64,000 nucleotides of DNA, from assembly GCF_001886735.1 (NCBI RefSeq), contig NZ_CP018076.1:434001-498000 (forward strand). Direction: 5' to 3'. Positions within the stretch are counted from its first letter, which is position 1. Each line of letters begins with the position of its first letter. This DNA comes from Sulfitobacter alexandrii (GTDB lineage: Bacteria > Pseudomonadota > Alphaproteobacteria > Rhodobacterales > Rhodobacteraceae). Under the pieces are notes generated by a model, which was given only the letters and a program-made list of their open reading frames with translations, made no database searches and was not told the origin of the DNA. Shown here piece after piece: positions 7,804 to 23,137 of this stretch. Position numbers and translations under genes: made by a program.

Positions 7804-8744
7804 GGGCGCAGGCTCCGGAACAGCAGCAGGATGAAGACCGCGCCCCCGGCCACGTCGACGATAACGGACAGCGGTGTGGAGAGGTGCAGCACCCGCTCGA
7901 GAATGGCCTGACCGCCGACCAGCGTGATCATCGACACCAGCGCGGCAGAAGGCAGCAGGACGGCGTGGTAGGGCACCGGCGTCAGCACATGGGCGATGGC
8001 CGCGACGATCAACCCGAGGAACACGACCGGCCCCACGAAGGCGGTGGAGACCGAGACCAGCACGGCCACCACCACCAGCACCTGCAGGTAGCCGCGACGG
8101 GGGTCCTCGCCGAGGTTGATTGCCGCGTCGCGCCCCAGCGCCAGCACGTCCAGACGGTGCCGCATCCGCCAGGCGGCGGCGAGCCCCAGCAGGGTCAGCA
8201 GGGCCGCAACGGGGAGAATCTCGGTGTCGATCACATTGAAGCGCGCGTAGCTCGCCACCTGGATCACGGAGAATTCGTTGGGGTCGATCATCCGCTGCAG
8301 GAACCCGTTCCCGGCGCGGAACAGGCCCGACAGGATCACGCCTGTCAGGATCATTCGGATCAGGTCCTGACGCGCCTCCAGCAGCAGCGTGCCGAACAGC
8401 AGCAGCGAGGCGGCGACCATGATCAGGCTGGCAATTGCGAAGAATACCAGCGGCGGCAGGTCGGCCAGGGCGAAACCGCCGATCGTGTGCACCGCGACGG
8501 TAACCAGCAGCACGTAAAGCCAGTCGAACCCCATGATCGCCGGGGTCAAAATGCGGTTCCCGGTGATGGTCTGGAACAGCACGGTCGCCGTGCTGACCGA
8601 CGCGCCGACCAACAGCAGCGCCGCCAGCTTGGGAGCACGGAAGGGCAGAATGAAGTCCCACCCCGCCCGCGCGCCAAGCGTGAGGTAGCCAAGGCAGCAG
8701 AGCACGAGCACGCCCGCAAGCAGGCCAAGGGTCCTAGCGTGCAT
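7800..8744 (-). CDS. iron-siderophore ABC transporter permease (CeuC/FatC type)
   Basis: A 314-residue FecCD-family inner-membrane permease with about nine hydrophobic segments. The run LLVGASVSTATVLFQTITGN and TPAIMGFD is characteristic of the CeuC/FatC/VctG subgroup, which pairs with a CeuB-like permease to import catecholate or related siderophores. It overlaps the upstream permease by 11 bases and the ATPase by four. Confidence 0.92.
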   Translation of the reverse strand: MHARTLGLLAGVLVLCCLGYLTLGARAGWDFILPFRAPKLAALLLVGASVSTATVLFQTITGNRILTPAIMGFDWLYVLLVTVAVHTIGGFALADLPPLVFFAIASLIMVAASLLLFGTLLLEARQDLIRMILTGVILSGLFRAGNGFLQRMIDPNEFSVIQVASYARFNVIDTEILPVAALLTLLGLAAAWRMRHRLDVLALGRDAAINLGEDPRRGYLQVLVVVAVLVSVSTAFVGPVVFLGLIVAAIAHVLTPVPYHAVLLPSAALVSMITLVGGQAILERVLHLSTPLSVIVDVAGGAVFILLLFRSLRP

Positions 8745-9699
8745 GGCGCGGCCGCGAGTAGAGCAGGAACAGGAAGACCACCGCGCCCATCACGCCGAAG
8801 ATCGTGCCCACCGGCACCTCGAAGGGATACCGCACCAGTCGCGCGAAGATGTCGGAGGCGAGCACCAGACCCGCCCCGGTGAGCGCCACCAGTGGCAGCG
8901 TCTGCCGCAGGTTGTCGCCGTAGCGGCGCGAGACGATGTTGGGCACCAGCAGCCCGACGAAGGGGATCATCCCCACAGTGACAACCGTCAACGACACGAC
9001 AACCGCGACCGCCAGCAGGGCCAGCGCCATGACCTGTCCATAGTTCAGCCCCAGGCTGACCGCCATGCTGCGACCGAGCCCGATGATGGCAAGCTGGTCA
9101 GCGATCAGGTAGAGCGCGGCACCCACCGGGACGGCGATCCATAACAGCTCGTATCGCCCAAGCAGCACACCCGAGAACTCCCCCGACGTCCAGGTGTAGA
9201 TATATTGCAGCATGTCGTATTGGTAGGCGATGAAGGTCATCCCGGCCTCCAGCAAACCGCCGTAGACCAGCCCGATCAGCGGCACCAGCAGCGGCTGGGT
9301 CGGCGGCAGGCGCCGCACGATGAGGAGGAACAGAAAGGTCGCCGCCAGCGCGGTGACGGTGGCGAAGACCATGCGCACCACCAGCGGCGCGCCGGGGATC
9401 AGGAAGCTCGCGAAGAGGATACCCAACGCCGCGCCCTGTCCGGTGCCGATGGTCATCGGCTCGACGAAGCGGTTGCGCAGGATCACCTGCATCACCGCGC
9501 CCGCGACGGCCAGCATCGCCCCGGTGATCAGCACCGCCAGCGTCCGCGGCGCGCGACTGATGCCGATGAGGGCGATGCCGCCGGGGTCAGTGACCGCCTG
9601 AGCGGGAGTCAGGTCAATGACACCGGTGAAGATCGACCAGACCGAGAGCGCCGCGACCAGGACAAGCCCGATCCGGAAGGCTATTTTGCGGGACGCCAA
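8734..9699 (-). CDS. iron-siderophore ABC transporter permease (CeuB/FatD type)
   Basis: A 321-residue FecCD-family permease. The N-terminus SIFTGVIDLTP and the VAGAVMQVILRNRFVEP segment match the CeuB/FatD subgroup, and GLLVPNIVSRRYG is the usual FecCD ATPase-contact loop. It begins three bases after the binding-protein stop, in one operon. Together with the next permease it would form the heterodimeric channel. Confidence 0.92.
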   Translation of the reverse strand: MASRKIAFRIGLVLVAALSVWSIFTGVIDLTPAQAVTDPGGIALIGISRAPRTLAVLITGAMLAVAGAVMQVILRNRFVEPMTIGTGQGAALGILFASFLIPGAPLVVRMVFATVTALAATFLFLLIVRRLPPTQPLLVPLIGLVYGGLLEAGMTFIAYQYDMLQYIYTWTSGEFSGVLLGRYELLWIAVPVGAALYLIADQLAIIGLGRSMAVSLGLNYGQVMALALLAVAVVVSLTVVTVGMIPFVGLLVPNIVSRRYGDNLRQTLPLVALTGAGLVLASDIFARLVRYPFEVPVGTIFGVMGAVVFLFLLYSRPRHAR

Positions 9700-9702
9700 G
9701 CC

Positions 9703-10593
9703 TCAGCTGCCGGTCATGCCCGCGGCGATCTGGTCGAGGGTGATCGACATCGACTGGATCCCGCCCCCCGCGACATACAGCGGCGCGCTGTCGAGGTACA
9801 TGACCGGGCCGTTCTTCCAAGCCCGTGTCTTGCGCACCAGCGCATTGTCCAACGTCGCCTTCGCGGCTTCGCCGCCCTGTCCGATGGCGGCCTGACGGTC
9901 GACGACGATCAGGATCTCGGGGTCGGCGTCGCGGATGAATTCGAAACTGATGGCTTTTCCGTGGGTCGCGTCCTCGACCGATTGCACCGCCTCGGGCAGG
10001 TCGAGCGCGTCGTGCAGCCAACCGAACCGCCCGCCCGATCCATAGGCCGAGACCTTGGGCCCGACCGTCATCACGATCAGCGCGCTGCCTTTGCCGGCCA
10101 CCGCTGCACGGGTCGCCGCCAGCTTCTCCTCGAAACCTGCCGCCAGCGCCGCCGCCTCGTCCTGCTTGCCGAAGATTTCGCCGTAGGCCGCCAGCCGGTC
10201 CAGCCCCTGCGCCACCACGTCTTCCCAGATGGTCATGTCGATGGTCGGCGCGATCCGGGCGAGGTCCGGCACGGCTTCGTAGGATCGCCCGCCTGCCACG
10301 ATCAGGTCGGGAGCGAGTGCCGCCACGGCCTCGAAATCGGGTTCGAACAGAGTGCCGACCTTCTCCGCACCCTTTGTCGCACCACCGAGATAGGTGACGT
10401 AAATGGGGTCTATCACCCCCGCCGGGGTCACCCCCAGCGCGGCAAGCGTGTCCAGCGCCGCGACGTCCAGGACCGCGATCCGTTTCGGCATTGTCTCGAC
10501 CTCAACCGGGCCGCGATAGGTATCGACGGTCACGGTCTCGGCAGCCAGCGGGCCGCAGGACAAGGACAGGCAAAGCGCAAGTTTTCTCAGCAT
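9703..10593 (-). CDS. siderophore-binding periplasmic protein (FatB/CeuE-like)
   Basis: A secreted solute-binding protein of 296 residues. The start MLRKLALCLSLSCGPLAAE at 10593 gives a typical Sec signal peptide and follows GAGGTGCCCG; an upstream in-frame start at 10626 is less likely. The mature protein has the class III fold pattern of FatB/CeuE (PKRIAVLDVAALDTLAALGV, LAPDLIVAGGRS, IWEDVVAQGLDRLA). It heads the importer operon. The exact siderophore is not determined; the subgroup includes petrobactin, enterobactin-fragment and vibriobactin binders. Confidence 0.92.
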   Translation of the reverse strand: MLRKLALCLSLSCGPLAAETVTVDTYRGPVEVETMPKRIAVLDVAALDTLAALGVTPAGVIDPIYVTYLGGATKGAEKVGTLFEPDFEAVAALAPDLIVAGGRSYEAVPDLARIAPTIDMTIWEDVVAQGLDRLAAYGEIFGKQDEAAALAAGFEEKLAATRAAVAGKGSALIVMTVGPKVSAYGSGGRFGWLHDALDLPEAVQSVEDATHGKAISFEFIRDADPEILIVVDRQAAIGQGGEAAKATLDNALVRKTRAWKNGPVMYLDSAPLYVAGGGIQSMSITLDQIAAGMTGS

Positions 10594-10717
10594 CGGGCAC
10601 CTCGGAACTGGTCGCCTGGCTGTCACGGGTGGGTGGCTGAGCGGATTGACTTCGGCCGGAAACTACGGACTACATCCGCGACAGTCCAGAGGCAAAACCG
10701 AGAGAAAAGGACCAATC

Positions 10718-10999
10718 ATGACCATATTGACCGGCACCTTCGAGACGCCAAATGCGTCGAAATACCTGCAACAACTCTGCAAGCACTTTGGCCACAAGAT
10801 CGAGACGGAGTTCACCAAGACCGAGGGCACCTGCCACTTTGACATGGGCCCGGCCTACATGAAAGCGGATGACCGAGAGCTGAGAGTGAGCTTCGAACTT
10901 GACGGACCCCAGAGCGAAGATGCCGCGCGGGATGTCATTGATCGGCACCTCGAAAAGTTCGCTTTCCGCGAAGAGTTCAACGGCATGCAGTGGCGGTGA
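10718..10999 (+). CDS. DUF2218 domain protein
   Basis: A 93-residue soluble protein. The sequence FETPNASKYLQQLCKHFGHKIE and the closing EEFNGMQWR fit DUF2218, a small family of unknown biochemical role that often lies beside iron or siderophore uptake genes in proteobacteria. The ATG at 10718 follows AGAGAAAAGGACCAATC. It is divergent from the binding protein and 130 bases ahead of the TonB receptor, so it may share iron control with both. Function not known. Confidence 0.8.
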   Translation: MTILTGTFETPNASKYLQQLCKHFGHKIETEFTKTEGTCHFDMGPAYMKADDRELRVSFELDGPQSEDAARDVIDRHLEKFAFREEFNGMQWR

Positions 11000-11129
11000 C
11001 GACCGGGCTTCCGCACGTCGGCGCCAATCCGCTTGTCTAATCCAACCAATTCTGTCAGATACACCACCGAGGCAGCCGCGGACCCGTCCCAGCAACCCAG
11101 GAAGATCAATCTATCCGGGGAATCACGGG

Positions 11130-13115
11130 ATGAATACTGCGACCAGGTTTGTTTTTTTCGCTGCCGGCCTGATACCTGCTGCGGCAACAGCTCAGGCAAT
11201 TGACGAGGGTGCGTTTCTTGGGACGATCGTGCTGTCCTACCCCACGGTGCCCGGCCTCGGTGAAGACGAGATCAACGTCACCAGCGAAGGCCTCGCATTA
11301 AGCAATCCCGCCGACCTGTCCGAACTCTTCGTGGCCGAGCCGACGATCTCTGTCGGCAGTTCGATCCCGATGTCACAGAAAGTCTACGTTCAGGGAATCG
11401 AGGAAAACAACCTCGCCATCACCATCGACGGGGCAAGGCAGAACAACAAGGTCTTCCATCACAATACCACCACGCTGATCGACCCCGCGCTGCTCAAGGC
11501 CGTGCGGATCGAGCCCGGTGTCGCATCCGCCGATGCAGGCCCCGGTGCGCTCGGCGGTGCGCTGGCCTACGAGACCAAGGACGTGGCCGACCTGCTGCCC
11601 GTGGGCGAGACCTTCGGCGGACGCTACAAGTTCGAATACGATTCCAACGGCGACATCTTCTCCAACAGCGTCACGCTCTACGGGATGCGGGGCGGGTTCG
11701 AATACCTCGGGTTCCTGAAATTTGCCGAAGGCAACCTGCGCGAGGACGGCAGTGGCACCGACATCATCGGCTCCGGCACCAACGTGCTGAGCGGGTTGGG
11801 CAAGGTCGCCTACGAGACGCAGTCCGGCAGCCGTTTCGAACTCTCTTACGAACAGGTGGCCGACGACGAGGCGCGGCCTTACCGCGCCAACATCGGCCAG
11901 ATCATCGGCGGCCGTCCGTTGCCATTGACCCGGCCCTACGAGCTTGAGCGGCGCAACGTGGTCTTTTCCTATTCCGAGACGAACCCCACCGGTGTGTGGG
12001 ATCCGACCGTGCGACTGGCCTACAGCGGAACGGAACTGTTCAACGATGAAAGCACCCTGTCCACGGTGCAGACCACGTTTGGCGAGACCACCAGCTTCAG
12101 CGCCACCCTGTCGAACCGCTTCACGCTGGCGTGGGGCGAAGTGAACGCAGGGCTGGACTTCTACGATGACGAGGCGGGGATCGACTACGACAGTCTGTCC
12201 ACGCCTGCCGACAGCTACGTGGCCCGCGAGAAGCTGCGCAATATCGGCGTCTTTGCCCAGGTCCGGATGGAGCCCACGGCAACCAGCCGCCTGTCCTTCG
12301 GCGCACGCGCCGATTTCCAGGAATTCACCGGCGTCGACGGGTCGGAGCAGAGCGACTCCGGTTTGTCAGCCAATGTCTCCGGAGAAGTCGACGTGACCGA
12401 ACAGCTCACGCTGAGCGCGGGCTATGCCCATGTCTGGGGCGGACTCGAACTGGCGGAGAACTACATCATGAACCCGGCCTGGACGTATCCGGCGGGCGGG
12501 TTGCAGACGGCTTCTTCCGATAGCCTCTATGTTGCGGCAAGCTACGCGGTCGGCGACTGGGTCGTGGATGGCAAGGTCTTCGGCACGCAGATCGACGATG
12601 CCCGCGCGGCCAGCTACCGCGGCGGGCCGGGCCTGACCACGGATGTCGAAACCCGAGGCTTCGAGATCGGCGTCGGCACCGCCTGGGAGAACGGTTTCTT
12701 CCGAGCCGGCTTTGCCAGCATCGACACGGAGCTTAACGGCCGGAACGCAGACAGCTACGACGGCAATTACCTGACCATGCCGATGGGCGACTTCCTGACT
12801 TTCCAGGTGGCGCACCGCCTGAACAACGGTGTGCTGATCGGCGGCGACGCGCAGATCGCCTTCGACTACGAGGACACCTACGACAGCACGACCGGGGGCC
12901 GCGGGCCGGAGCTGCCCGGTTACACCGTGGTCAATGCCTTCGCCGAGTATTCGCCGAAGCGGATGAACAACCTGACCCTGCGGGCAGAGGTGAACAACCT
13001 CTTCGACGAGGACTATTCCAGCCGTGCCACCTATGGCCAGGAATTCATCGGAGAAGTGGCGCCGCTGAAGGAACCGGGTCGCTCGCTGCGGCTGAGTGCG
13101 GAGATCGTTTTCTAA
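11130..13115 (+). CDS. TonB-dependent outer-membrane receptor
   Basis: A 661-residue outer-membrane receptor for a ferric siderophore or haem. It starts with a signal peptide (MNTATRFVFFAAGLIPAAAT, cut after AQA), a TonB-box-like segment near EINVTSEGL, a plug domain (VYVQGIEENNLAITIDGARQ, then RIEPGVASADAGPGALGGAL) and a 22-strand-type barrel ending in the diagnostic C-terminal phenylalanine of SAEIVF. The plug resembles the haemoglobin/transferrin/siderophore class. Its neighbours make it the outer-membrane gate of the importer. The open frame extends upstream, but only the 11130 start yields a signal peptide. Confidence 0.93.
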   Translation: MNTATRFVFFAAGLIPAAATAQAIDEGAFLGTIVLSYPTVPGLGEDEINVTSEGLALSNPADLSELFVAEPTISVGSSIPMSQKVYVQGIEENNLAITIDGARQNNKVFHHNTTTLIDPALLKAVRIEPGVASADAGPGALGGALAYETKDVADLLPVGETFGGRYKFEYDSNGDIFSNSVTLYGMRGGFEYLGFLKFAEGNLREDGSGTDIIGSGTNVLSGLGKVAYETQSGSRFELSYEQVADDEARPYRANIGQIIGGRPLPLTRPYELERRNVVFSYSETNPTGVWDPTVRLAYSGTELFNDESTLSTVQTTFGETTSFSATLSNRFTLAWGEVNAGLDFYDDEAGIDYDSLSTPADSYVAREKLRNIGVFAQVRMEPTATSRLSFGARADFQEFTGVDGSEQSDSGLSANVSGEVDVTEQLTLSAGYAHVWGGLELAENYIMNPAWTYPAGGLQTASSDSLYVAASYAVGDWVVDGKVFGTQIDDARAASYRGGPGLTTDVETRGFEIGVGTAWENGFFRAGFASIDTELNGRNADSYDGNYLTMPMGDFLTFQVAHRLNNGVLIGGDAQIAFDYEDTYDSTTGGRGPELPGYTVVNAFAEYSPKRMNNLTLRAEVNNLFDEDYSSRATYGQEFIGEVAPLKEPGRSLRLSAEIVF

Positions 13116-13299
13116 GGTTTCCCGTCCACGGTTTTCTGCCGGGGCCAGTGTGAACGGCTCTCTGTTCGACTGGACCCAGCGGCGGGTTCAGTAGACGATT
13201 GGAAGCAGATCCTGCTTGATTGCAAGCTCGGCCGGACAACTGAGCCTGACGGCAACTAAATTCTGGATGATGATGGAAAGGCTGGTTTTCCCGCAAAGC
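13116..13299. other. intergenic, convergent to a possible small gene
   Basis: Downstream of the TonB receptor; no terminator with a T tract and no gene was recognised. Confidence 0.3.
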
Positions 13300-13653
13300 C
13301 TAGTAAATATTCTTTCCGAGCATAGGCTCTTCGAAAAGCTGCGAGGCCCGGCTTTTGGTAGTTCCACCTACGCGCAGCAGGCGAGCCTGTTTCTCTACCG
13401 TTGGCATACATGCATCGTGAATTTTCCTTTCACGATCGAGATCTCTTTGCGCGGGTTCGTGCGCCCCGGGAAGGATCAGGACATGGCCGGTCACACTTGG
13501 CTCGATCGCTGGCGCTTGTTGCGACGGCGGGGCCGCATCGATGTTGTCAGGCTCGACCAGCCCTGCGAAATGCGCGACGAGATCCAGCACCACCGGATCG
13601 TTGCCGCCGGCGATTTGCACGGGGGGCTCCTCACAAAAGACGAATACTTGCAT
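13300..13653 (-). CDS. hypothetical 117-residue protein, doubtful
   Basis: An open frame that begins MQVFVFCEEPPVQIAGGNDP after GGAGACGTG, a good ribosome binding site. Over its first 60 codons the third positions are mostly G or C, as in real genes of this genome; the last third is less biased, so the C-terminus may be degenerate. It has no transmembrane segment, signal peptide or recognised domain. It is divergent from the methyltransferase/acyltransferase cluster. An overlapping plus-strand frame (13216-13731) looks less gene-like. Confidence 0.42.
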   Translation of the reverse strand: MQVFVFCEEPPVQIAGGNDPVVLDLVAHFAGLVEPDNIDAAPPSQQAPAIEPSVTGHVLILPGAHEPAQRDLDRERKIHDACMPTVEKQARLLRVGGTTKSRASQLFEEPMLGKNIY

Positions 13654-14131
13654 CACGTCTCCAGACCTGTCGAGGCGTTACGATTCGTCTTGTTGTCGCC
13701 AAAAATTGGGTTCGCACTTTGGCGGACATGAGGAATTCGTCGGTCAAATCAGGCGCTTTTGCCCTTGTGATGTCACATTTTGGATACACCCCGATCAGGG
13801 CCGGTAAACGTTTCCGGGGCAACCATTGCGACAATCAACCCGGGGTTGATCCGAAGTCGATCTTCATCCCGACACTACAACTTGCGGTTATGCGCACTTC
13901 CGGCCTCACATCGTGTGGCAGAATTAAGGCATCTGCGGAAACGAGTCGTAACAACCTGTCAGGACTCCAGGCGGAAAACGTCCTGAAGATTGCTGCGCGT
14001 CTGGAAAAGTGACGAGCCAATCGTGCACGATTCTGAAAAAATTCCTCGTACTATCAACTTCGTACCGTAGACTCTTGCTACCATGGACCCACAGGGCCGT
14101 CTTGGCCGCTTGAATACGGAGGCGTCCCAAT
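13654..14131. promoter_or_regulatory. regulatory region upstream of the methyltransferase-FeeM-kinase cluster
   Basis: About 480 bases without a supported gene, lower in GC than its surroundings. It holds a 7-bp inverted repeat ATCAACC-CGG-GGTTGAT (13834-13850), a palindromic GTGATGTCAC near 13767 and an AAACGTTT palindrome near 13806. Any of these could bind a regulator of the cluster; none matches an operator I can name. GGAGG lies nine bases before the methyltransferase ATG. Confidence 0.4.
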
Positions 14132-14896
14132 ATGCCGTCAAATGCCAACCTCGAGAACGCCTTGGGTCCTGAATTTCATGGGTCAAAGCCGTCGAACCAA
14201 TCGGCCGAAACCGATTGGAGCGCATATGCGACAGCTTATGACCTCTTGTCCCTGCACAACCCTGAGTATCGGGCCCTTCTGCAGGAATTTGAAAGCTTCC
14301 TCTCAACCATCGAGACGCCGCAAGTCATCTACGACATCGGCGGCGGCACAGGCAGCTACACCGAGATCGCCGCAGGTGCCTTCCCCGGAAGCGAGATACA
14401 CCTTGTCGAGCCCGACGCAACGATGTTGCGAACCGCGAGAGCCAAACTATCGAGATACAGCAAGGTCCACTTTCATGCCGCCGCACTGCAGGAGTTCAAG
14501 GCTCCCGGCAAAGCTGACCTGATCGTTTGCGTGCACGCGCTCTACACGATGCCAAACCAGCGGGAGCGGCTCGATGATCTGCGGCGAATGGTTCGCCCGG
14601 GCGGACATCTCTTTCTCATCGATCTTGGACGCTACATGGATGTGTCGGATTGGCGCCGCTATCTCTTCGCAGAGCTGAAACGAGAGCACGGTCTGATAGG
14701 TGCGCTCAAGGTTTTCTGGCAAGGCCGCCAGGTGGCAAAGCAGAACAAGGCCATTCTGAAATCTCAGCAATCCGGGGCGTACTGGACCTTTACTGGCCCT
14801 GAGCTGGCGGCTGCGGTGACCGATGCCGGCTTCGAGATCCTCAAGCAGCAACCCGTTTACCGTGGATACAGCGATCTTCTCGTGTGTCGCGCATGA
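14132..14896 (+). CDS. class I SAM-dependent methyltransferase
   Basis: A 254-residue Rossmann-fold methyltransferase. Motif I is VIYDIGGGTGSYTEIA (about residues 65-80), followed by the acidic ribose-binding LVEPDATML and the post-motif strand DLIVCVHALY; RRMVRPGGHLFLIDLG is the usual motif III region. The start follows CGGAGGCGTCCCAAT. It lies 74 bases ahead of a FeeM/LuxI-like acyltransferase. That context suggests methylation of an acylated amino acid or other small product, but the substrate is inference. Confidence 0.88.
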   Translation: MPSNANLENALGPEFHGSKPSNQSAETDWSAYATAYDLLSLHNPEYRALLQEFESFLSTIETPQVIYDIGGGTGSYTEIAAGAFPGSEIHLVEPDATMLRTARAKLSRYSKVHFHAAALQEFKAPGKADLIVCVHALYTMPNQRERLDDLRRMVRPGGHLFLIDLGRYMDVSDWRRYLFAELKREHGLIGALKVFWQGRQVAKQNKAILKSQQSGAYWTFTGPELAAAVTDAGFEILKQQPVYRGYSDLLVCRA

Positions 14897-14970
14897 CCAG
14901 AGCCGCACCAAGATAACTCCAAGGCCGCATCCGCCCGTCAAGAGGCAGCGGCACAGACAGAGGACCGAGC

Positions 14971-15660
14971 ATGGATCAGAGAGTCACCGATGCGCTGACG
15001 AGCGTTCGCTACAGAGTTGCGACTGAAAGCGACGACCTGGAGAATATCTACCGTCTGCGATATGCGTGCTACCGAGCCGAGCAATCGATATCCGAAAACG
15101 AACGCGGTCTGATGACCGATCCATTCGATGATACCGCGAACTGCGTCCATGTCGCGGTGGAGATGGAAGACAAGATCATCGCGGCACTCCGGCTGCATCT
15201 TGTCTCCAGACTTTCTCTCGCCTCCCCGACTTTGCAAGTATTCCCGGAACTTCAGGGCTACGTTGACAAGGGCCAGACCATTCTCGACCCGACGCGCTTC
15301 GTGATTGCCCCCTCTGCGCGAAAGAAGCGTGTGCCATTGCACTTCCTGGCGCTGAGAATCCCGTTTCTTGCCGCGATGTTCTATCATATCGACGTGGCTC
15401 TCGCCCCTGTCCGTGCAGAGCACACCGCCTTCTACCAGCGCTACCTTGGCTACGAGAAGGCGTTTGAGCCCCGTGATTATCCGCGCCTGAACAAGCCGAT
15501 ACAGTTGCTGACCGTCAACTTCCGTGAGCAGAGCGCAGCCGTACTGAAGCGCACGCCGGTATTCGGACCGATGGAGGACTTTCCCGAGGCGAACATCAGC
15601 TTCCCGCCGCTAACCGGGATTTATGCTCCCTCCAAGAAGGCGCGCACAGAGGCTGCCTGA
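14971..15660 (+). CDS. N-acyl amino acid synthase FeeM / autoinducer-synthase-like GNAT protein
   Basis: A 229-residue protein of the GNAT fold shared by FeeM-type N-acyl amino acid synthases and LuxI. Recognisable elements are IYRLRYACYRAEQSI near residues 26-40 (the LuxI-like arginine/aromatic N-terminus), DPFDD, AALRLHLVSRL and LDPTRFVI, which aligns with the conserved E/D-x-x-R-F strand. These enzymes join an acyl chain from acyl-ACP to an amino acid (FeeM) or SAM (LuxI). It lies between a methyltransferase and a sensor kinase. FeeM-type is preferred because the LuxI signature is incomplete; the product is unknown. Confidence 0.75.
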   Translation: MDQRVTDALTSVRYRVATESDDLENIYRLRYACYRAEQSISENERGLMTDPFDDTANCVHVAVEMEDKIIAALRLHLVSRLSLASPTLQVFPELQGYVDKGQTILDPTRFVIAPSARKKRVPLHFLALRIPFLAAMFYHIDVALAPVRAEHTAFYQRYLGYEKAFEPRDYPRLNKPIQLLTVNFREQSAAVLKRTPVFGPMEDFPEANISFPPLTGIYAPSKKARTEAA

Positions 15661-15841
15661 ACCAGGCCAAGGCCACATCTACCTGTCAGAATTTGTGACG
15701 GGAGAAGCCGCTGACAGCTCGCGTCTCCATCACAGACGTCGCATCCAGCGGGACGAAAAGACACATCTCGACCGGCCAGTGCCGAAGATTCACCATATTT
15801 GTATATTATTCTTCACCTCTAACAATGCCGTAGAGGTAAGA

Positions 15842-17251
15842 ATGAACGCTCTTGAAATGTTCCAAGAAGGTCGGCCTGACTGGTTCACTTCAGAAGGTCG
15901 CGAGCAGAAGATCAAGGAATACATCAGGCTTGCCGACAAACTCGTCTGGAAACGCCAAGGCAGCTTCCTGGCCGCATCTGTGCTGACCGCATTCTACTTC
16001 GATGCAGTGTCGATCTTTACTTTCTATGGCATTGTCGTGCTCACCGAGGTTCTCGACCTGCACCTTGGCCGGGCAGCCCGGAACTGGGATGGTTCGGACG
16101 CAATTGTCGGCCGAAAAATCCTCAAGCGCATTGCCGTGAACACCGTGCTGAGCGCTGTCGCCATCGCAGCCTTCATCATCAACATCGCGCTACAGCAAGA
16201 AGCCACCGGACATTTCACGCCGCTGTTCTTCCTGATCTCGGCTTCGGTATTCGCCGCGATGTACAACAGTCAGATGTCTGGCATCCTGCTGTTGCGGCTC
16301 TCCATCTATGGTGCTGCTTTCCTCTACATCGCTCTGATCGACATCTTTAAATTCTTTCCGCCACTCAGTTCCACCATCTGGCTGGAATTCTGGACGATTG
16401 TCTTCGTTCTCTACTTCATCGCCGACATATCCATCAAATTCTACACCGGCTACGAGCAGCAGATGAAGTATGTGGCGCTGTTGAAAGAGGAGAATGAGCG
16501 CACGAAGACTGCCCTGGAGGTCAAGTCGAGGTTCCTGAGCATCGTCAGCCACGAGCTGCGCACGCCGCTGACATCGATCATTGGGTCGCTGGAGCTCATC
16601 AGGCGCGGTCATGGGGGTACGCTCCCAGACAACGTCAAGCCGGTGCTCGATATCGCTGCGAGAAACAGTCAGCGGCTTGCTTCCCTGGTCGAGGATCTTC
16701 TTGACCTGCAGAAGCTCGAAGCCGGCGAAATGGAGTTCATCTTCAAGCCGATCGATGCGAACGATCTCGTTCAGGAGGCAGTCGAGTCCGCCGAAGGCTA
16801 TGCCAGCAAACTGGGTATCACTGTCGAGACCGAGTTCTGCACAGAGCCCTGCCAGATTTCAGGCGAGAACAAGCGGCTTGTTCAGGTAATGAACAATCTG
16901 CTGTCGAATGCGATAAAATTTTCGGACGAAGGATCGACTGTGACCGTGAGGGTCGAGGTCATTGGTGCGCATGTCCGCATCTCTGTTGAGGATCAGGGTG
17001 TCGGCATCCCCGAGGGTTCAAGAGAGGTTGTATTCGGCAAGTTCACCCAGGTGGACGCTTCTGACATTCGCAAGGTAGGCGGCACCGGTCTTGGTCTGAA
17101 TATCACCGAGCAAATCCTTGATCGCCACAATGCGGTGATTGACTACGTCAGCGAAGTTGGTGTCGGATCCACCTTCTTCATCGAATTTGATCGTATCAAA
17201 AACGTGAAAGCTTTGCCTGGCGACAGGAAAGAGATCACGCAAGCGGCGTGA
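15842..17251 (+). CDS. multi-pass membrane sensor histidine kinase
   Basis: A 469-residue kinase. The N-terminal 200 residues hold about six hydrophobic segments (near 41-73, 99-117, 124-142, 147-167 and 178-199) and no large periplasmic domain, so it probably senses a lipophilic ligand or membrane state. Then come a short coiled linker, a HisKA helix with H237 in IVSHELRTPLT, and a HATPase domain (NNLLSNAIKFS, DQGVGIP, GGTGLGLNI). The start follows GAGGTAAGA; an AT-rich stretch near 15790-15815 is a likely promoter. No response regulator is adjacent. Confidence 0.9.
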   Translation: MNALEMFQEGRPDWFTSEGREQKIKEYIRLADKLVWKRQGSFLAASVLTAFYFDAVSIFTFYGIVVLTEVLDLHLGRAARNWDGSDAIVGRKILKRIAVNTVLSAVAIAAFIINIALQQEATGHFTPLFFLISASVFAAMYNSQMSGILLLRLSIYGAAFLYIALIDIFKFFPPLSSTIWLEFWTIVFVLYFIADISIKFYTGYEQQMKYVALLKEENERTKTALEVKSRFLSIVSHELRTPLTSIIGSLELIRRGHGGTLPDNVKPVLDIAARNSQRLASLVEDLLDLQKLEAGEMEFIFKPIDANDLVQEAVESAEGYASKLGITVETEFCTEPCQISGENKRLVQVMNNLLSNAIKFSDEGSTVTVRVEVIGAHVRISVEDQGVGIPEGSREVVFGKFTQVDASDIRKVGGTGLGLNITEQILDRHNAVIDYVSEVGVGSTFFIEFDRIKNVKALPGDRKEITQAA

Positions 17252-17471
17252 TGCCAGGTTATCAGTTTCTGCGCTGAATCCGGGTGGAGGTTCGCCTTCT
17301 TTCGTCACCTGCCGGATTTATCAGGTTCGGAAAAGGCGATCACACTTCGGAGCAATTCAACCACGTTGGGCAAGCATCATGGCCCCGTCCTCCGGTCCTG
17401 GCGATGGGCTGGCAGCCGGAACGGTGATGCATCGACCGTCGTTACAAAATCTTCACTTGCGCTCCGCTCTT

Positions 17472-17493
17472 TATTTCATCATTCCATGAAATA
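17472..17493 (+). promoter_or_regulatory. inverted-repeat operator overlapping the arsR-arsC start codon
   Basis: A perfect 8-bp inverted repeat, TATTTCAT (17472-17479) and ATGAAATA (17486-17493), separated by CATTCC. Its right arm ends on the A of the ATG at 17493. ArsR-family repressors bind such AT-rich dyads at their own promoters, so this is probably the autoregulatory site of the arsenic operon. Confidence 0.7.
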
Positions 17494-18326
17494 TGGAAAA
17501 AGATGTTCCCGATCAGCTCTCCGTTCTGGGTCACCCGCAGCGACTGGCCGTGTTCCGTTTGCTCATGCGCCGCTATCCGGACCGCGTGCCGGCGGGTGAA
17601 TTGGCGGCGACGCTCGGCATCAAGGCCAGCACGATGTCCACCTACCTGTCCGCCCTGACGCGGGAACGTCTCGTGGAACAGCAGCGATCGGGCACATCGC
17701 TTCTCTACGCCATCGACATGAGCGCGGTGCAACGGCTGTTCGGATACCTTTTCAGCGACTGCTGCCGCGGGCGCCCGGACGTCTGCCTGCCTTTCAGCAC
17801 GGGAACCCCTGCCATGCCTGACCGCAAATACAACGTTCTCTTCATCTGCGTCGGGAACTCCGCCCGTTCCATCTTTGCCGAGTCGATCCTGCGCGAATAC
17901 GCGGGCGACCGGTTCAACGCGTTCTCCGCCGGTACGCGTCCGGGCACACAGCTCAATCCGTTCGCGGTTCAGGTCCTGAAAGACAAGGGCCACGATATTT
18001 CGGTGTTGCGGTCAAAGGATCTGACGGAGTTCTCGGGCCCCGACGCCCCACATTTCGATTTCGTTTTCACGGTCTGCGATCAGGCTGCGAACGAAGAGTG
18101 CCCCGCGTGGGAAGGGCAGCCCGTGACCGGCCATTGGGGCATGCCCGATCCGGTCAAGGCCGAGGGGAGGGACGCGCAGAAGGCGCTGGCCTTCCAGCAC
18201 GCCTACGGCGCGCTGAAGCGCCGGATCGAATTGTTCACTGCACTCCATCCGGACTCTCTGAGCCGTGCAGCCATACAGCAGGCCGTCGATGATATCGGCC
18301 GCGCCAAACCCGAGGTGACCGCATGA
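17493..18326 (+). CDS. ArsR-type repressor fused to low-molecular-weight arsenate reductase
   Basis: A 277-residue fusion. Residues 1-100 form a winged-helix ArsR domain ([14 protein letters not shown], helix [16 protein letters not shown]) ending in cysteines C90, C91 and C98 in [10 protein letters not shown], suited to bind As(III). Residues 110-270 are an LMW-phosphatase-type arsenate reductase with catalytic C119 and R125 in CVGNSAR. So one chain senses arsenite and reduces arsenate. No Shine-Dalgarno sequence precedes the ATG, which abuts the operator. It couples to the GAPDH gene by a four-base overlap. Confidence 0.93.
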
Positions 18327-19321
18327 CGACCTACGCAATCAACGGCCTTGGCCGCATCGGCAAGCTTGCCCTTCGCCCCCTGCTGGAAACCGGCGCGAAG
18401 ATCGCCTGGATCAACGATGCCGTCGGCGATCCCGGGATGCACGCGCATCTGCTGGAATTCGACACCGTCCACGGGCGCTGGAGGGCGGACTTTGCCCATG
18501 ACGCTGACAGCGTGACAATCGACGGTACCCGCATCCCCTTCATCGGCACGAAGTCCCTGTCAGACTTGCCGCTCGACGGCGTAGACGTGGTGATCGACTG
18601 CACCGGCGTCTTCAAGTCCGAGGCAAAGCTGGCCCCGTATTTCGAGGCCGGTGTGAAGAAGGTCGTCGTGTCGGCGCCCGTCAAGGACGGCCCTACCGCG
18701 AACATTGTCATGGGTGTTAACCACGACACCTATGATCCGGCGCAGCACCGCATCGTGACCGCCGCCTCCTGCACCACCAATTGCCTCGCGCCGGTGGTGA
18801 AGGTCGTGCACGAGACCTTCGGGATCAAGCATGGCTCCATGACGACGATCCATGACGTGACGAACACGCAGACGATCGTCGACCGTCCGGCCAAGGACCT
18901 GCGCCGGGCCCGATCCGCCCTGAACTCTCTGATCCCTACGACCACCGGGTCGGCGACCGCGATCACGCTGATCTACCCGGAACTGAAAGGCCGCCTGAAT
19001 GGCCACGCCGTGCGGGTGCCTCTGCTGAACGCCTCGCTCACCGACTGTGTGTTCGAACTGGAACGGGCCACCACCGTGGAAGAGGTCAACGCCGCCTTCA
19101 AGGCGGCGGCGGACGGCCCGCTCAGGGGCATCCTCGGCTACGAGACCCGCCCGCTGGTGTCGACCGATTACACCAACGACCCGCGGTCCTCGATCATCGA
19201 CGCCCCCTCGACCATGGTCGTCAATGGCACCCAGCTGAAGGTCTACGCCTGGTATGACAACGAATGGGGATATGCCTGCCGTCTGGCGGACGTGGCGCTG
19301 ATGGTCGGGGCGTCTTTGTGA
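18323..19321 (+). CDS. ArsJ-associated glyceraldehyde-3-phosphate dehydrogenase
   Basis: A 332-residue GAPDH with NAD-binding [14 protein letters not shown], catalytic C150 in ASCTTNC and the [11 protein letters not shown]-terminal motif. In this type of cassette the enzyme uses arsenate in place of phosphate to make 1-arseno-3-phosphoglycerate, which ArsJ then expels. It overlaps the ArsR-ArsC gene by four bases and ArsJ by four, so the three are one translationally coupled operon. A purely glycolytic role is less likely given this context. Confidence 0.93.
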
Positions 19322-20577
19322 ACGACCGGCCGGAAGGCCTGTCGGCCTACATCGCCGTCACGGCGGCGTATTGGGCGTTCATGCTGACGGACGGGGCACT
19401 GCGGATGCTGGTGCTTCTCCACTTCCATACACTCGGCTTCAGCCCGGTGCAGCTGGCCTACCTCTTCGTCCTCTACGAGGTTGCGGGGATGATCACCAAC
19501 CTCGCCGCCGGCTGGATCGCACGTCGGTTCGGGCTGACCTCCACGCTATATGTCGGGATCGGGTTGCAGGTGATCGCCCTGCTGGCTCTGGCGCAGCTTG
19601 ATCCGGAATGGAGCATTGCCGTCTCGGTGGCTTTCGTGATGTGCGTGCAGGGGCTGTCGGGGGTCGCCAAGGATCTGGCAAAGATGTCGTCGAAATCGGC
19701 GGTGAAACTGCTCGCTCCGACCGCGAACGGAGGACTCTTTCGATGGGTCGCCGTGCTGACAGGATCAAAAAACGCCGTGAAGGGCGTCGGCTTCCTGCTG
19801 GGCGCTGCGCTGCTGGCCGGGATTGGCTTCGACTGGGCCGTGCTGGCGATGGCGATGGGGCTGGGGGTGGTCCTTCTGGCGGTGGTGGTCTTCATGCCCT
19901 CGGGCCTGCCCAAGGGGAAGAAGGGCACGAAGTTCTCCGAAGTGTTCTCGAAATCCGCCAATGTGAATTGGCTGTCGGCGGCACGCGTCTTCCTGTTCGG
20001 GGCGCGCGACGTGTGGTTCGTCGTGGGCATCCCGGTCTATTTCTACGCGGTCCTGTCCGATGGGACTGAGGCGGGCAACCGTGCCGCGTTCTTCCTGATC
20101 GGGACGTTCATGGCGGTCTGGATCATCCTCTACGGGATGGTGCAGGCCGCTGCGCCCGGGATCCTGCGTGCGGCGAGCAGACCGGAGGGCGAACTGATCC
20201 GCGCGGCCCGGGGCTGGGCCCTTGCGCTCTTTGTCGTGCCCGCCGCGCTCACGGTGGCCGTTGCCCTCTCGCCCGCGCCGCAGACGTGGCTGACGGTGAC
20301 GCTCGTGGCAGGCCTGCTGGCATTCGGGGCGGTTTTCGCCGTCAATTCTTCGCTCCATTCCTACCTGATCCTTGCCTTCTCGAAATCCGACCGGGTGACG
20401 ATGGATGTGGGCTTCTACTACATGGCCAATGCGGGCGGTCGTCTGATCGGCACGCTTCTGTCCGGCCTGACCTACCAGATCGGCGGGTTGACCCTCGTCA
20501 TGGGCACGGCGGCCGCATTTGTCTTGCTGTCAGCGATGACCTCGGGGCGCCTGACCGATCAGTCAGCGGCAGGGTGA
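19318..20577 (+). CDS. arsJ: organoarsenical efflux MFS transporter ArsJ
   Basis: A 419-residue major-facilitator protein with about 11-12 membrane segments, including [20 protein letters not shown] at the start and [17 protein letters not shown] between helices, both typical of ArsJ. It exports 1-arseno-3-phosphoglycerate, giving arsenate resistance together with the upstream GAPDH. A GTG start at 19318 overlapping the GAPDH stop (GTGA) is preferred over an ATG inside the upstream gene. Confidence 0.92.
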
Positions 20578-20647
20578 CGTCCCGGCGCTGACCTTCGGGT
20601 TTCTGCCCAAGGTCTCGTCTTGAGGGGCCCGCTGATTAATGCGCGCG

Positions 20648-21403
20648 CTAGCTTTCCGGTCGGTCGAACCCCAGCCCTAGCGCCGCGCGCCGCAGGATAT
20701 CGAGGATCTGGGCGCGCCGTTCCGGTTCCTGCAGCATCCCGACCGTCGCCGTCGTACCGAGCGCTGCGGGAACACCGCCAATCAGGCCGCAGGGCACCGC
20801 CAGCGCGCCTGCGCCCATCTCGAACTCGTTCTCGAGGTGGCACGCGCCTTCCTGGGCGGCTGCTTCGATCGAGGCGCGGAGGCGCGATCTGTCCACCTCT
20901 GTCGCGGAGGTGAACTGCCGGATTTCCGCATCGTTCAGGTAACCTTCGCGCTCCGCAGGGGGAAGCTGGGCCAAAAGCACCCGGCCCATGGCGGTCGGGA
21001 GCAGGGGCAGGGTGCTGCCCACCGTGAAGCCAAGGGAAATCCGCGCTGAAGGCGTGGCGGCACGGGCGACATAGATGGCCCTTTGACCGTCCAGCGTGGC
21101 AAGCGCGATCTCGCTGTCGAGTTCCGGCGCGGCCCTGTCGAGCACCGGTTGCACACGCCGGCCGAAATCGTGCCCGGCGAGATAGCCCGCACCCAAAGCA
21201 AGGGTGCGCGCCGTCAGCTCGAGTGCCCGGCCCGTCTGCCGCAGGTAGCCACAGTCCACCAGGGTCAGGCAGAGCCGCCGCGCCGTGGCCTTGTCGAAAC
21301 CGGTGCGGCGCGCGACCTCGGCCATCGTCATGCTGTGCGGCGCCGTCTGAAAACAGGCGAGCACCTGCAGTCCCTTGGCGAAGGTGCTTGCTCCGATCGT
21401 CAT
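20648..21403 (-). CDS. IclR-family transcriptional regulator
   Basis: A 251-residue regulator with an N-terminal winged helix (MTMAEVARRTGFDKATARRLCLTL, residues 25-48 approximately) and a C-terminal GAF-like effector domain (LPLLPTAMGRVLLAQLPPAE; AGALAVPCGLIGGVPAALG). The ATG at 21403 was preferred; the frame continues further upstream but crosses the probable promoter. It is divergent from the Rieske gene at 21486 and most likely controls that catabolic cluster. The effector is unknown. Confidence 0.9.
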   Translation of the reverse strand: MTIGASTFAKGLQVLACFQTAPHSMTMAEVARRTGFDKATARRLCLTLVDCGYLRQTGRALELTARTLALGAGYLAGHDFGRRVQPVLDRAAPELDSEIALATLDGQRAIYVARAATPSARISLGFTVGSTLPLLPTAMGRVLLAQLPPAEREGYLNDAEIRQFTSATEVDRSRLRASIEAAAQEGACHLENEFEMGAGALAVPCGLIGGVPAALGTTATVGMLQEPERRAQILDILRRAALGLGFDRPES

Positions 21404-21485
21404 GTTGACAAAACTCCCGGCCGCGATAAGATCAATTATCGACTTAAAGTTCAAATAACGCACTATTGATGGGCCGTCAACGCGT
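21404..21485. promoter_or_regulatory. divergent promoter region iclR / Rieske operon
   Basis: Eighty-two bases between divergent genes with an AT-rich core (AAGATCAATTATCGACTT near 21427-21445) where the IclR protein would be expected to bind. Confidence 0.45.
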
Positions 21486-21914
21486 ATGACCGACAGCAGC
21501 AAGATCGATACGGACGCCGACAATGCAGAGGGCGACTGGGTCCAGATCGCGGAAGTCGGACAGCTCGACCCGGAGCGTCCGCTGATCCCGGTCACACTTG
21601 GCGGCAGACCGTTCGTTCTGTTCCGGGATGACGACGGCCATCTGGGGCTTATCGGCCGGCACTGCCCCCACCGCGGGGCGGATCTGTGCTACGGTCGGCT
21701 GGAAGACAGCGGGCTGCGGTGCCCCTTTCACGGCTGGCATTTCGACAGGACCGGCCAATGCGTGGAGCAGCCCGCCGAACCGGAAGGGTCGCAGATGTAC
21801 AAGGCCATCAAGGTGCCGATGGTGCCCGTCAGGGAAGAAGAGGGCCGAATTTTGGCCCGGCGCGTTCTCCCTCGGGAGGACGCCCGCGCAACCGCAGGAA
21901 AGGATCGACCATGA
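21486..21914 (+). CDS. stand-alone Rieske [2Fe-2S] protein, probable oxygenase subunit
   Basis: A 142-residue Rieske protein. All four cluster ligands are visible as C60-x-H62 in CPH and C79-x-x-H82 in CPFH, followed by GWHFD. The surroundings (RHCPHRGADLCYGRLEDSGL) look like the Rieske domain of phthalate-dioxygenase-type oxygenases rather than a BphA3-type ferredoxin. Its stop overlaps the start of the oxygenase gene (ATGA), whose product lacks these ligands. I infer that this protein supplies the cluster to that subunit, either as a partner chain or as the electron donor. Confidence 0.85.
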   Translation: MTDSSKIDTDADNAEGDWVQIAEVGQLDPERPLIPVTLGGRPFVLFRDDDGHLGLIGRHCPHRGADLCYGRLEDSGLRCPFHGWHFDRTGQCVEQPAEPEGSQMYKAIKVPMVPVREEEGRILARRVLPREDARATAGKDRP

Positions 21915-23137
21915 TCAGTCAGGAACTCAACGACCGCATCACCCGGGTCGGCCCGGGAACGCCGGCGGGTGCCGTTTTGCGGCGCTACTGGCAGCCTGCG
22001 GCGCTGAGCGACGAGATGGCGCGCGGACTGCCGCTGGCGGTGAACCTGTTGGGCGAACGGCTTGCGCTGGTGGCCGATGATCGCGGCGGCCTGCAGCTTG
22101 TGCCGCGCGAAGCCGCCGCCGACGAGGCGCCGAGCCATTCACCCGACCCGTCCGAGATCGTGCTGGTCAAGGGGGGGCCGGTGTACCCGGCGCAGGAAAG
22201 AAACGGCGTGGTGTTCGCCTACCTCGGTCCCGACACGCCGCCCTCCTTTCCCGAGTTCGACTGCTTCCGCGCGCCGGAAAGCCATGTCTTCGCCTTCAAG
22301 GGCCTGTGGGAATGCAACTGGCTGCAGGCCCTGGAAATCGGGATCGACCCGGCACATGCGTCGTTCCTGCATCGGTTTCTCGAGGACGAGGATCCCGGCG
22401 ACGGCTACGGAAAACAGTTCCGCGACCGGGCGGCCCACACGAACATGCCGATGACACAGGTGTTGCGCGAATATCCGCGCCCCGACATCCAAGTGGAAGA
22501 GACCGACTTCGGCCTCAAGATCGTGGCCCTGCGCCACATGGAAAACGAACTGACCCACGTGCGCGTGACGAACCAGATCTTTCCCGACGCGATCTGCATT
22601 CCGATGTCGCGCGAGATGACGATCACGCAATGGCATGTGCCGATCGACGATGAGAATTGCTATTGGGTGTCGATGTTCACCAGTTTCGGTGCGCCCGTGA
22701 ACAAGGACGTGATGCGGGCGCAGCGTCTGGAAGAGCACGAACTGCCGACATACGCGCCGAAGAAGAACCGCGATAATCGCTATGGATACAACCCGGCCGA
22801 GCAGCAGAGCACGACCTACACGGGCATGGGGCTGGACATCAACGTCCACGACCAGTGGGCGGTCGAGGGCATGGGCGCCATTCAGGACCGCACCCAGGAG
22901 CATCTGGGGCGCAGCGACGTTGCCATCGTCCGGTACCGTCGGCTCTTGCGGAAGTGCATCGCGGCGGTGGAGGAGGCCGACGAGGCCGTGCTGCCGATGC
23001 GCGGGCAGGCGGACCTGTGCGCCCTGAAGGGGCCGCTATCGAACGATGCGATCGCGGAGACGCGTGATTGGTCCGGGGCAAACCACGCCGCCGACATGGC
23101 GCGGCGGGCGGCCTGCCCGTGGGACGCGACCGTCTGA
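21911..23137 (+). CDS. phthalate-dioxygenase-like oxygenase subunit lacking Rieske ligands
   Basis: A 408-residue ring-hydroxylating oxygenase alpha-type protein. The N-terminus (RVGPGTPAGAVLRRYWQPA) and the catalytic segment NWLQALEIGIDPAHASFLH, with iron ligands H149 and H154, match the phthalate 4,5-dioxygenase/O-demethylase family. Between residues 64 and 100, where the CxH...CxxH Rieske loops should be, there is a short Cys-free segment, after which the normal QERNGVVFAYLGP resumes. The mononuclear iron site is thus kept and the [2Fe-2S] site lost. Substrate unknown. Confidence 0.85.
   Translation: MISQELNDRITRVGPGTPAGAVLRRYWQPAALSDEMARGLPLAVNLLGERLALVADDRGGLQLVPREAAADEAPSHSPDPSEIVLVKGGPVYPAQERNGVVFAYLGPDTPPSFPEFDCFRAPESHVFAFKGLWECNWLQALEIGIDPAHASFLHRFLEDEDPGDGYGKQFRDRAAHTNMPMTQVLREYPRPDIQVEETDFGLKIVALRHMENELTHVRVTNQIFPDAICIPMSREMTITQWHVPIDDENCYWVSMFTSFGAPVNKDVMRAQRLEEHELPTYAPKKNRDNRYGYNPAEQQSTTYTGMGLDINVHDQWAVEGMGAIQDRTQEHLGRSDVAIVRYRRLLRKCIAAVEEADEAVLPMRGQADLCALKGPLSNDAIAETRDWSGANHAADMARRAACPWDATV

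Follow-up and report, generated by a model that had tools for sequence, protein, structure and literature searches.

The window analysed here (64,000 nucleotides of Sulfitobacter alexandrii, contig NZ_CP018076.1, positions 434,001 to 498,000) carries three genes on the same strand that, taken as a whole, are best explained as a cassette of which two enzymes make an N-acyl amino acid methyl ester (NAME) while a histidine kinase senses it, a reading to which we assign a probability of about 0.64. The first gene (MT, 14132..14896, +) encodes a class I S-adenosylmethionine (SAM)-dependent methyltransferase of 254 residues, proposed to be an N-acyl amino acid carboxyl O-methyltransferase; the second (FeeM gene, 14971..15660, +) encodes a GNAT-fold protein of 229 residues, assigned to the FeeM family of N-acyl amino acid synthases by both Pfam and fold; the third (HK, 15842..17251, +) encodes a membrane sensor histidine kinase, our candidate receptor in view of its Pfam domains, hydropathy and gene linkage.

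According to the mechanism that we infer, the FeeM enzyme would take a long acyl chain from the acyl carrier protein (acyl-ACP) and attach it to the amine of a small amino acid (such as alanine or glycine), after which MT would cap the free carboxylate with the methyl group of SAM to yield a NAME. This neutral lipid ester would then exit the cell, and the membrane kinase would most likely detect it and hand phosphate to a response regulator. A first-pass annotation of the same DNA had already read the methyltransferase, 74 bases ahead of the GNAT open reading frame (ORF), as part of a possible NAME locus. The coordinates and the common strand are borne out, and the reading itself is partly supported, by the enzyme families, by the co-occurrence of the pair and by its presence in Roseovarius tolerans, but the methyl-ester step is still a proposal and the conserved kinase had been missed. 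Because of this kinase, the locus looks more like a signal-plus-receptor cassette than like a bare biosynthetic pair.

Identity of the Two Enzymes

The 229-residue protein had been taken for a FeeM-type enzyme, and both Hidden Markov Model profiles and structure prediction, when compared with FeeM and LuxI, point to FeeM. It matches the Pfam FeeM family (PF21926) with 135.4 bits (cut-off 27) and is the sole FeeM match at E ≤ 0.001 in the genome of the window, while the LuxI profile (Autoind_synth, PF00765) yields 15.3 bits, under its cut-off of 24. The predicted structure has a FeeM-like fold, its nearest neighbour being the FeeM crystal structure 2G0B. The latter was reached by structure comparison, at 13–15% identity in the structural alignment; 2G0B was not among the matches of plain phmmer and profile searches against PDB sequences, which returned only N-acyl-homoserine lactone (AHL) synthases. 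Across 28 sequences, residues R74, D50, D53, E150 and H151 are invariant.

The identification of the upstream protein as a SAM methyltransferase holds as well, since it matches generic methyltransferase domains of Pfam (Methyltransf_12: 58.5 bits, cut-off 30). Its structure model (pLDDT 80) comes closest to a mixed group of folds, in which methyltransferases of small molecules and of RNA stand side by side and which also contains the carboxyl O-methyltransferases CysG/BelI. Among the NCBIfam matches listed, none of the three cassette proteins is over cut-off.

Linkage of the Three Genes across Genomes

To what extent the genes travel together was examined in 394 genomes of the family, nearly one per genus, all relatives being drawn from genome and plasmid collections only. 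An MT orthologue (E ≤ 1e-20) is present in six of these genomes and a FeeM-type gene is adjacent in 6/6, hence the pairing is not due to chance. FeeM matches of any strength occur in 264 of the 394 genomes, but they are mostly weak and were therefore not counted as FeeM; the Pfam FeeM profile exceeds 100 bits in nine genomes, every other genome staying at or below 58.3 bits. One of these nine (G010) was not retained as a carrier of the pair, since its FeeM gene is part of a distinct cluster, where the methyltransferase is not MT and a kinase of this type is missing. By eye, this cluster (L035:8009-14543) includes a methyltransferase along with FAD-linked-oxidase-like and flavin monooxygenase/halogenase-like genes, and its product is perhaps another acyl amino acid. 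In a sample of the class (385 genomes, 276 genera), no genome other than that of the window had an MT match at E ≤ 1e-30.

A scan of named genomes returned 27 loci, i.e., 21 at ≥52% identity, which we take from record titles to be all Rhodobacterales, and six from Mesorhizobium/Rhizobiaceae. In the former, MT lies next to FeeM in 21/21 loci and HK is present in 20/21; four of these loci coincide with genomes of the 394-genome survey. The pair hence co-occurs in relatives, at all 21 Rhodobacterales loci, and R. tolerans has it twice in its type strain. The FeeM proteins of the six other loci are 26–31% identical to that of the window, and neither MT nor the kinase is found beside them. Since the scan relied on two peptide patterns only, absence from it is weak evidence.

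Several loci depart from the common layout. In Carideicomes alvinocaridis (L054), MT and FeeM form one open frame of 529 residues, which retains an inner start codon and might still give two products, while a metagenome-assembled genome (L064) has the reversed order, FeeM then methyltransferase. Three copies on Sulfitobacter plasmids keep the usual arrangement; the plasmids of two are mobilizable, and the methyltransferase of the third is interrupted by an IS256 element. In Sulfitobacter sp. OXR-159, where MT is split by an IS256 transposase (L044:3815-5976), another plasmid bears an intact cassette, which makes a natural comparison pair. A plasmid of Deinococcus actinosclerus (L046:3264-6622) has overlapping genes for an FA_desaturase_2 fatty acid desaturase, a FeeM protein (91 bits) and two methyltransferases, one of which is 34.5% identical to MT of the window.

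The evolutionary distances of MT, FeeM and HK are concordant (Mantel r of 0.85, 0.85 and 0.76, n = 20, leaving out L052, which has no kinase, and the fusion L054), though shared descent as a unit would produce this agreement too. When positions 8001-22000 of the window were compared by blastn with the nearest relative, Sulfitobacter DFL-14 (L049), a homologous block was recovered at 13296..17261 (89% identity), with no more long matches flanking it, so that the cassette behaves as a unit. Given dN/dS values of 0.20 (MT), 0.21 (FeeM) and 0.15 (HK) against the same relative, all three genes look maintained.

Replacement of the Methyltransferase

Three genomes of the family (G371, G006 and G128) and two Loktanella salsilacus strains, the latter on plasmids, retain FeeM together with a related kinase (363–371 bits), but the class I MT has given way to a membrane protein of 183–197 residues from the PEMT/ICMT group of methyltransferases, to which the MT of the window, with its class I fold, is unrelated. 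The end of the replacement gene overlaps the FeeM frame, and the protein encoded on the L. salsilacus plasmids is about 97–98% identical to that of G006. That unrelated methyltransferases share one slot suggests that methylation itself is under selection. The L. salsilacus locus has a second methyltransferase, RsmJ-like but below cut-off. ICMT-like relatives also exist on Rhizobium/Neorhizobium plasmids, where no FeeM gene is annotated beside them in the 2 of 14 inspected.

The Histidine Kinase and Its Sensor Domain

HK combines HisKA (72.8 bits) and HATPase_c (93.2 bits) domains with a hydrophobic N-terminus, in which hydropathy indicates some 5–6 candidate transmembrane segments. Of the 394 family genomes, 50 contain this N-terminal sensor domain, at 53 places altogether. 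Eight of these places are FeeM loci (five of the class I type, three of the ICMT type), and a LuxI-type synthase lies near the kinase, in the surrounding stretch, in 32 of the 45 others; the LuxI-type profiles having been built from eight kinase neighbours, the count becomes 24/37 when those eight are removed. The LuxI-type neighbours score 47–55 bits with Pfam Autoind_synth in the five members scanned, receiver-domain proteins are often present at their loci, and no MT match was found there in the stretches examined. Conversely, among the best 35 matches of the LuxI-type profile, 33 are on the contig of the kinase, and 27 of the 35 are not part of the profile. With eight FeeM and 32 LuxI-type places, the sensor domain is associated with two families of GNAT-fold acyl-amino synthases, and the plainest reading is that it acts as a receptor for their products. 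It is because the domain adjoins both FeeM and LuxI-type genes that the unit studied here probably consists of a NAME synthase and its own receptor. No ORF of the 64-kb window matched response-regulator, LuxR or LuxI queries, and the partner of HK would therefore be encoded elsewhere.

Two side observations concern these kinases. The loci L076-L120 reveal a Rhodobacterales subfamily of LuxI-type synthases adjoining this membrane kinase and response regulators. The kinase of Wenxinia marina is directly followed by a LuxR-type protein that has an autoinducer-binding domain (L069:6201-7709, L037:5431-6000).

Among known systems, LuxM/LuxN and AinS/AinR also have a membrane histidine kinase rather than LuxR as the partner of an acyl-amino signal synthase, but LuxM and AinS are other synthase families, whereas the cassette of the window has FeeM and a methyltransferase. 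FeeM/NasY (PDB 2G0B) shares the fold and Pfam family of our acyltransferase, which differs in that a methyltransferase of its own and a membrane histidine kinase go with it. As for PhcB-PhcS of Ralstonia, we know of no acyl amino acid synthase in it. The likeness here is one of gene layout, namely a methyltransferase, which in our cassette would likewise make a lipid methyl ester, and a sensor histidine kinase, the comparison resting on the description of the system in the available part of the source, which gives a methyl 3-hydroxy fatty acid ester as the signal (PMC8578825).

Connection with Known NAME Producers

The first-pass annotation had mentioned that N-acyl amino acid methyl esters come from bacteria of the Roseobacter group, and the literature agrees: R. 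tolerans EL-164 produces N-acyl alanine methyl esters, while related esters of valine, 2-aminobutyrate and glycine come from Roseovarius D12_1.68 and Loktanella F13, F14 and D3 (PMC6296433). As no methanol was used, these NAMEs are native esters (PMC6296433). In the accessible part of a 2024 paper, candidate genes for the NAME synthase are said not to have been found (PMC11580390), and no gene is assigned to the compounds of EL-164 and Loktanella in the papers examined (PMC6296433, PMC11580390).

The cassette is carried by the same genera and by the same species: the MT-FeeM pair is found in duplicate in the type strain, R. tolerans DSM 11457 (L052, L053), once with the kinase, alongside a third, weak FeeM match (36.5 bits). 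Within the genus, FeeM matches at E ≤ 1e-20 occur in just 2 of the 19 other Roseovarius genomes sampled; the carriers L055 and L065 lay outside this sample. The MT-FeeM pair, of which the type strain of a producer species bears two copies, thereby becomes a named candidate for the NAME genes. Taken singly, NAMEs, N-acyl amino acid synthases and lipid-ester signals sensed by kinases are all known, but our literature search returned no account of a synthase, a methyltransferase and a kinase combined in one cassette, nor of its match to NAME producers.

Evidence against a NAME Cassette and Alternative Explanations

A number of observations weigh against the cassette as we read it. The link with NAMEs holds at the level of the species and not of the strain, the genome being that of DSM 11457 and the producer EL-164, and L. 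salsilacus is not among the reported NAME-producing strains. We know of no NAME report for DSM 11457, nor for most carrier genera (Sulfitobacter, Shimia and others). The kinase is lacking from the contig piece of the R. tolerans copy L052 and from the Deinococcus locus, and the pair of G107, in which a divergent FeeM gene (41 bits) overlaps MT by four bases, comes without a match to the sensor domain. Moreover, 13 of the 45 non-FeeM kinase places have no synthase in the stretch examined; one of these 13 has a LuxI-type synthase about 4 kb away and at least three others end at contig ends. Regarding the methyl transfer, CysG/BelI top the fold ranking of MT jointly with tRNA and N-methyltransferases, and because carboxyl-O, RNA and N-methyltransferases tie, the predicted fold does not reveal the substrate. 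In the available part of their description, CysG/BelI are metal-dependent enzymes with a His-His-Asp motif that methylate a carboxyl group (PMC11408123). In a profile alignment, their metal-binding His-His faces Tyr138-Ala139 of MT, so that the mechanism is not common to both. Finally, the replacement methyltransferase passes the PEMT cut-off in 3/3 proteins scanned and that of ICMT, a carboxyl methyltransferase, in 1/3, and scores 28.9 against a cut-off of 160 for the NCBIfam isoprenylcysteine methyltransferase; these scores make it no proof of a carboxyl acceptor.

At face value, the biology of NAMEs might suit another role: the product would be a NAME, yet serve as an antibiotic or surfactant, while the kinase would sense some other cue (e.g., cell-envelope stress) and only control the cluster. 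This is compatible with the biosynthetic half of our explanation and in keeping with an HlyD/MFS exporter pair downstream of the Loktanella locus, as well as with the properties given in the accessible parts of the literature, where NAMEs are inhibitory to a diatom and to some bacteria, are produced throughout growth, which AHLs are not, and are inactive on LuxR-type reporters (PMC11580390; PMC6296433). However, a kinase receptor would itself predict the lack of LuxR activity, and the same sensor domain accompanies LuxI-type synthases at 32 of its 45 other places, which argues for a common class of ligand; we regard this alternative as less likely than not.

Another possibility is a methylated N-acyl amino acid other than the proposed ester, in which the pair would have put the methyl group on a carbon, a hydroxyl or the amide nitrogen, or on the amino acid ahead of acylation. 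MT indeed belongs to a generic family, with the N-methyltransferase NodS and the C-methyltransferase CouO among its sequence and fold matches, the replacement enzyme is a better fit to the phospholipid N-methyltransferase family PEMT than to ICMT, and, in the available part of a study on stieleriacine producers, a FeeM-type gene lies near methyltransferases considered for modification of the tyrosine ring (PMC12479983). Against this, the Roseovarius and Loktanella compounds are native methyl esters (PMC6296433) and the cassette occurs in both genera; we hold this possibility to be improbable. That the acyltransferase would be an AHL synthase beside an unrelated methyltransferase is very improbable, for although FeeM and LuxI have a common fold, database records call the Loktanella copy an acyl-homoserine-lactone synthase and the kinase family adjoins LuxI-type genes elsewhere, the protein scores 15.3 bits with Autoind_synth (cut-off 24) vs. 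135 with FeeM, and MT is kept in 21/21 loci with no match near the LuxI-type kinase loci examined.

Other Features of the Locus

Ahead of MT, a short divergent ORF (13300..13656, −) is conserved, with a core of about 34 codons running from 13623 down to ~13522. The core was found some 300–900 bases upstream of MT in 21 of the 23 loci examined, shows a coding-like variation at third codon positions, and has a consensus resembling M-V-DDD-A-LDLVAHFLGIA-HDNINAAPS. It looks like the opening 34 residues of a response-regulator receiver domain, as if cut short. On the other side, a fusion of ArsR with a low-molecular-weight phosphatase is close to all three versions of the kinase cassette (FeeM with MT, FeeM with ICMT, LuxI type), at 17493-20577 in the window (by Pfam), and at L038:3674-6758 and L095:7560-8405 (both by eye); an MFS-type gene accompanies it in the window and in L038. 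At this site, the cassette versions look as if they had been swapped for one another.

Significance for Rhodobacterales

More broadly, these loci may belong to a new type of acyl-amino-acid signalling in Rhodobacterales, in which the kinase family would supply receptors for the products of GNAT-fold synthases. At least three versions would exist, which combine a LuxI-type synthase with response regulators, FeeM with class I MT, or FeeM with a PEMT/ICMT-like methyltransferase, the signal being a NAME in both FeeM versions; we put forward this wider scheme tentatively, its chances falling a little short of even. If true, it would explain why NAMEs exist and why they are inactive on LuxR-type reporters, as the NAME receptor may be a membrane kinase, hence their failure in LuxR assays. 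The purpose of NAMEs would become addressable by simple knock-outs, and a lipid methyl ester channel would join the means by which bacteria communicate on marine algae and surfaces.
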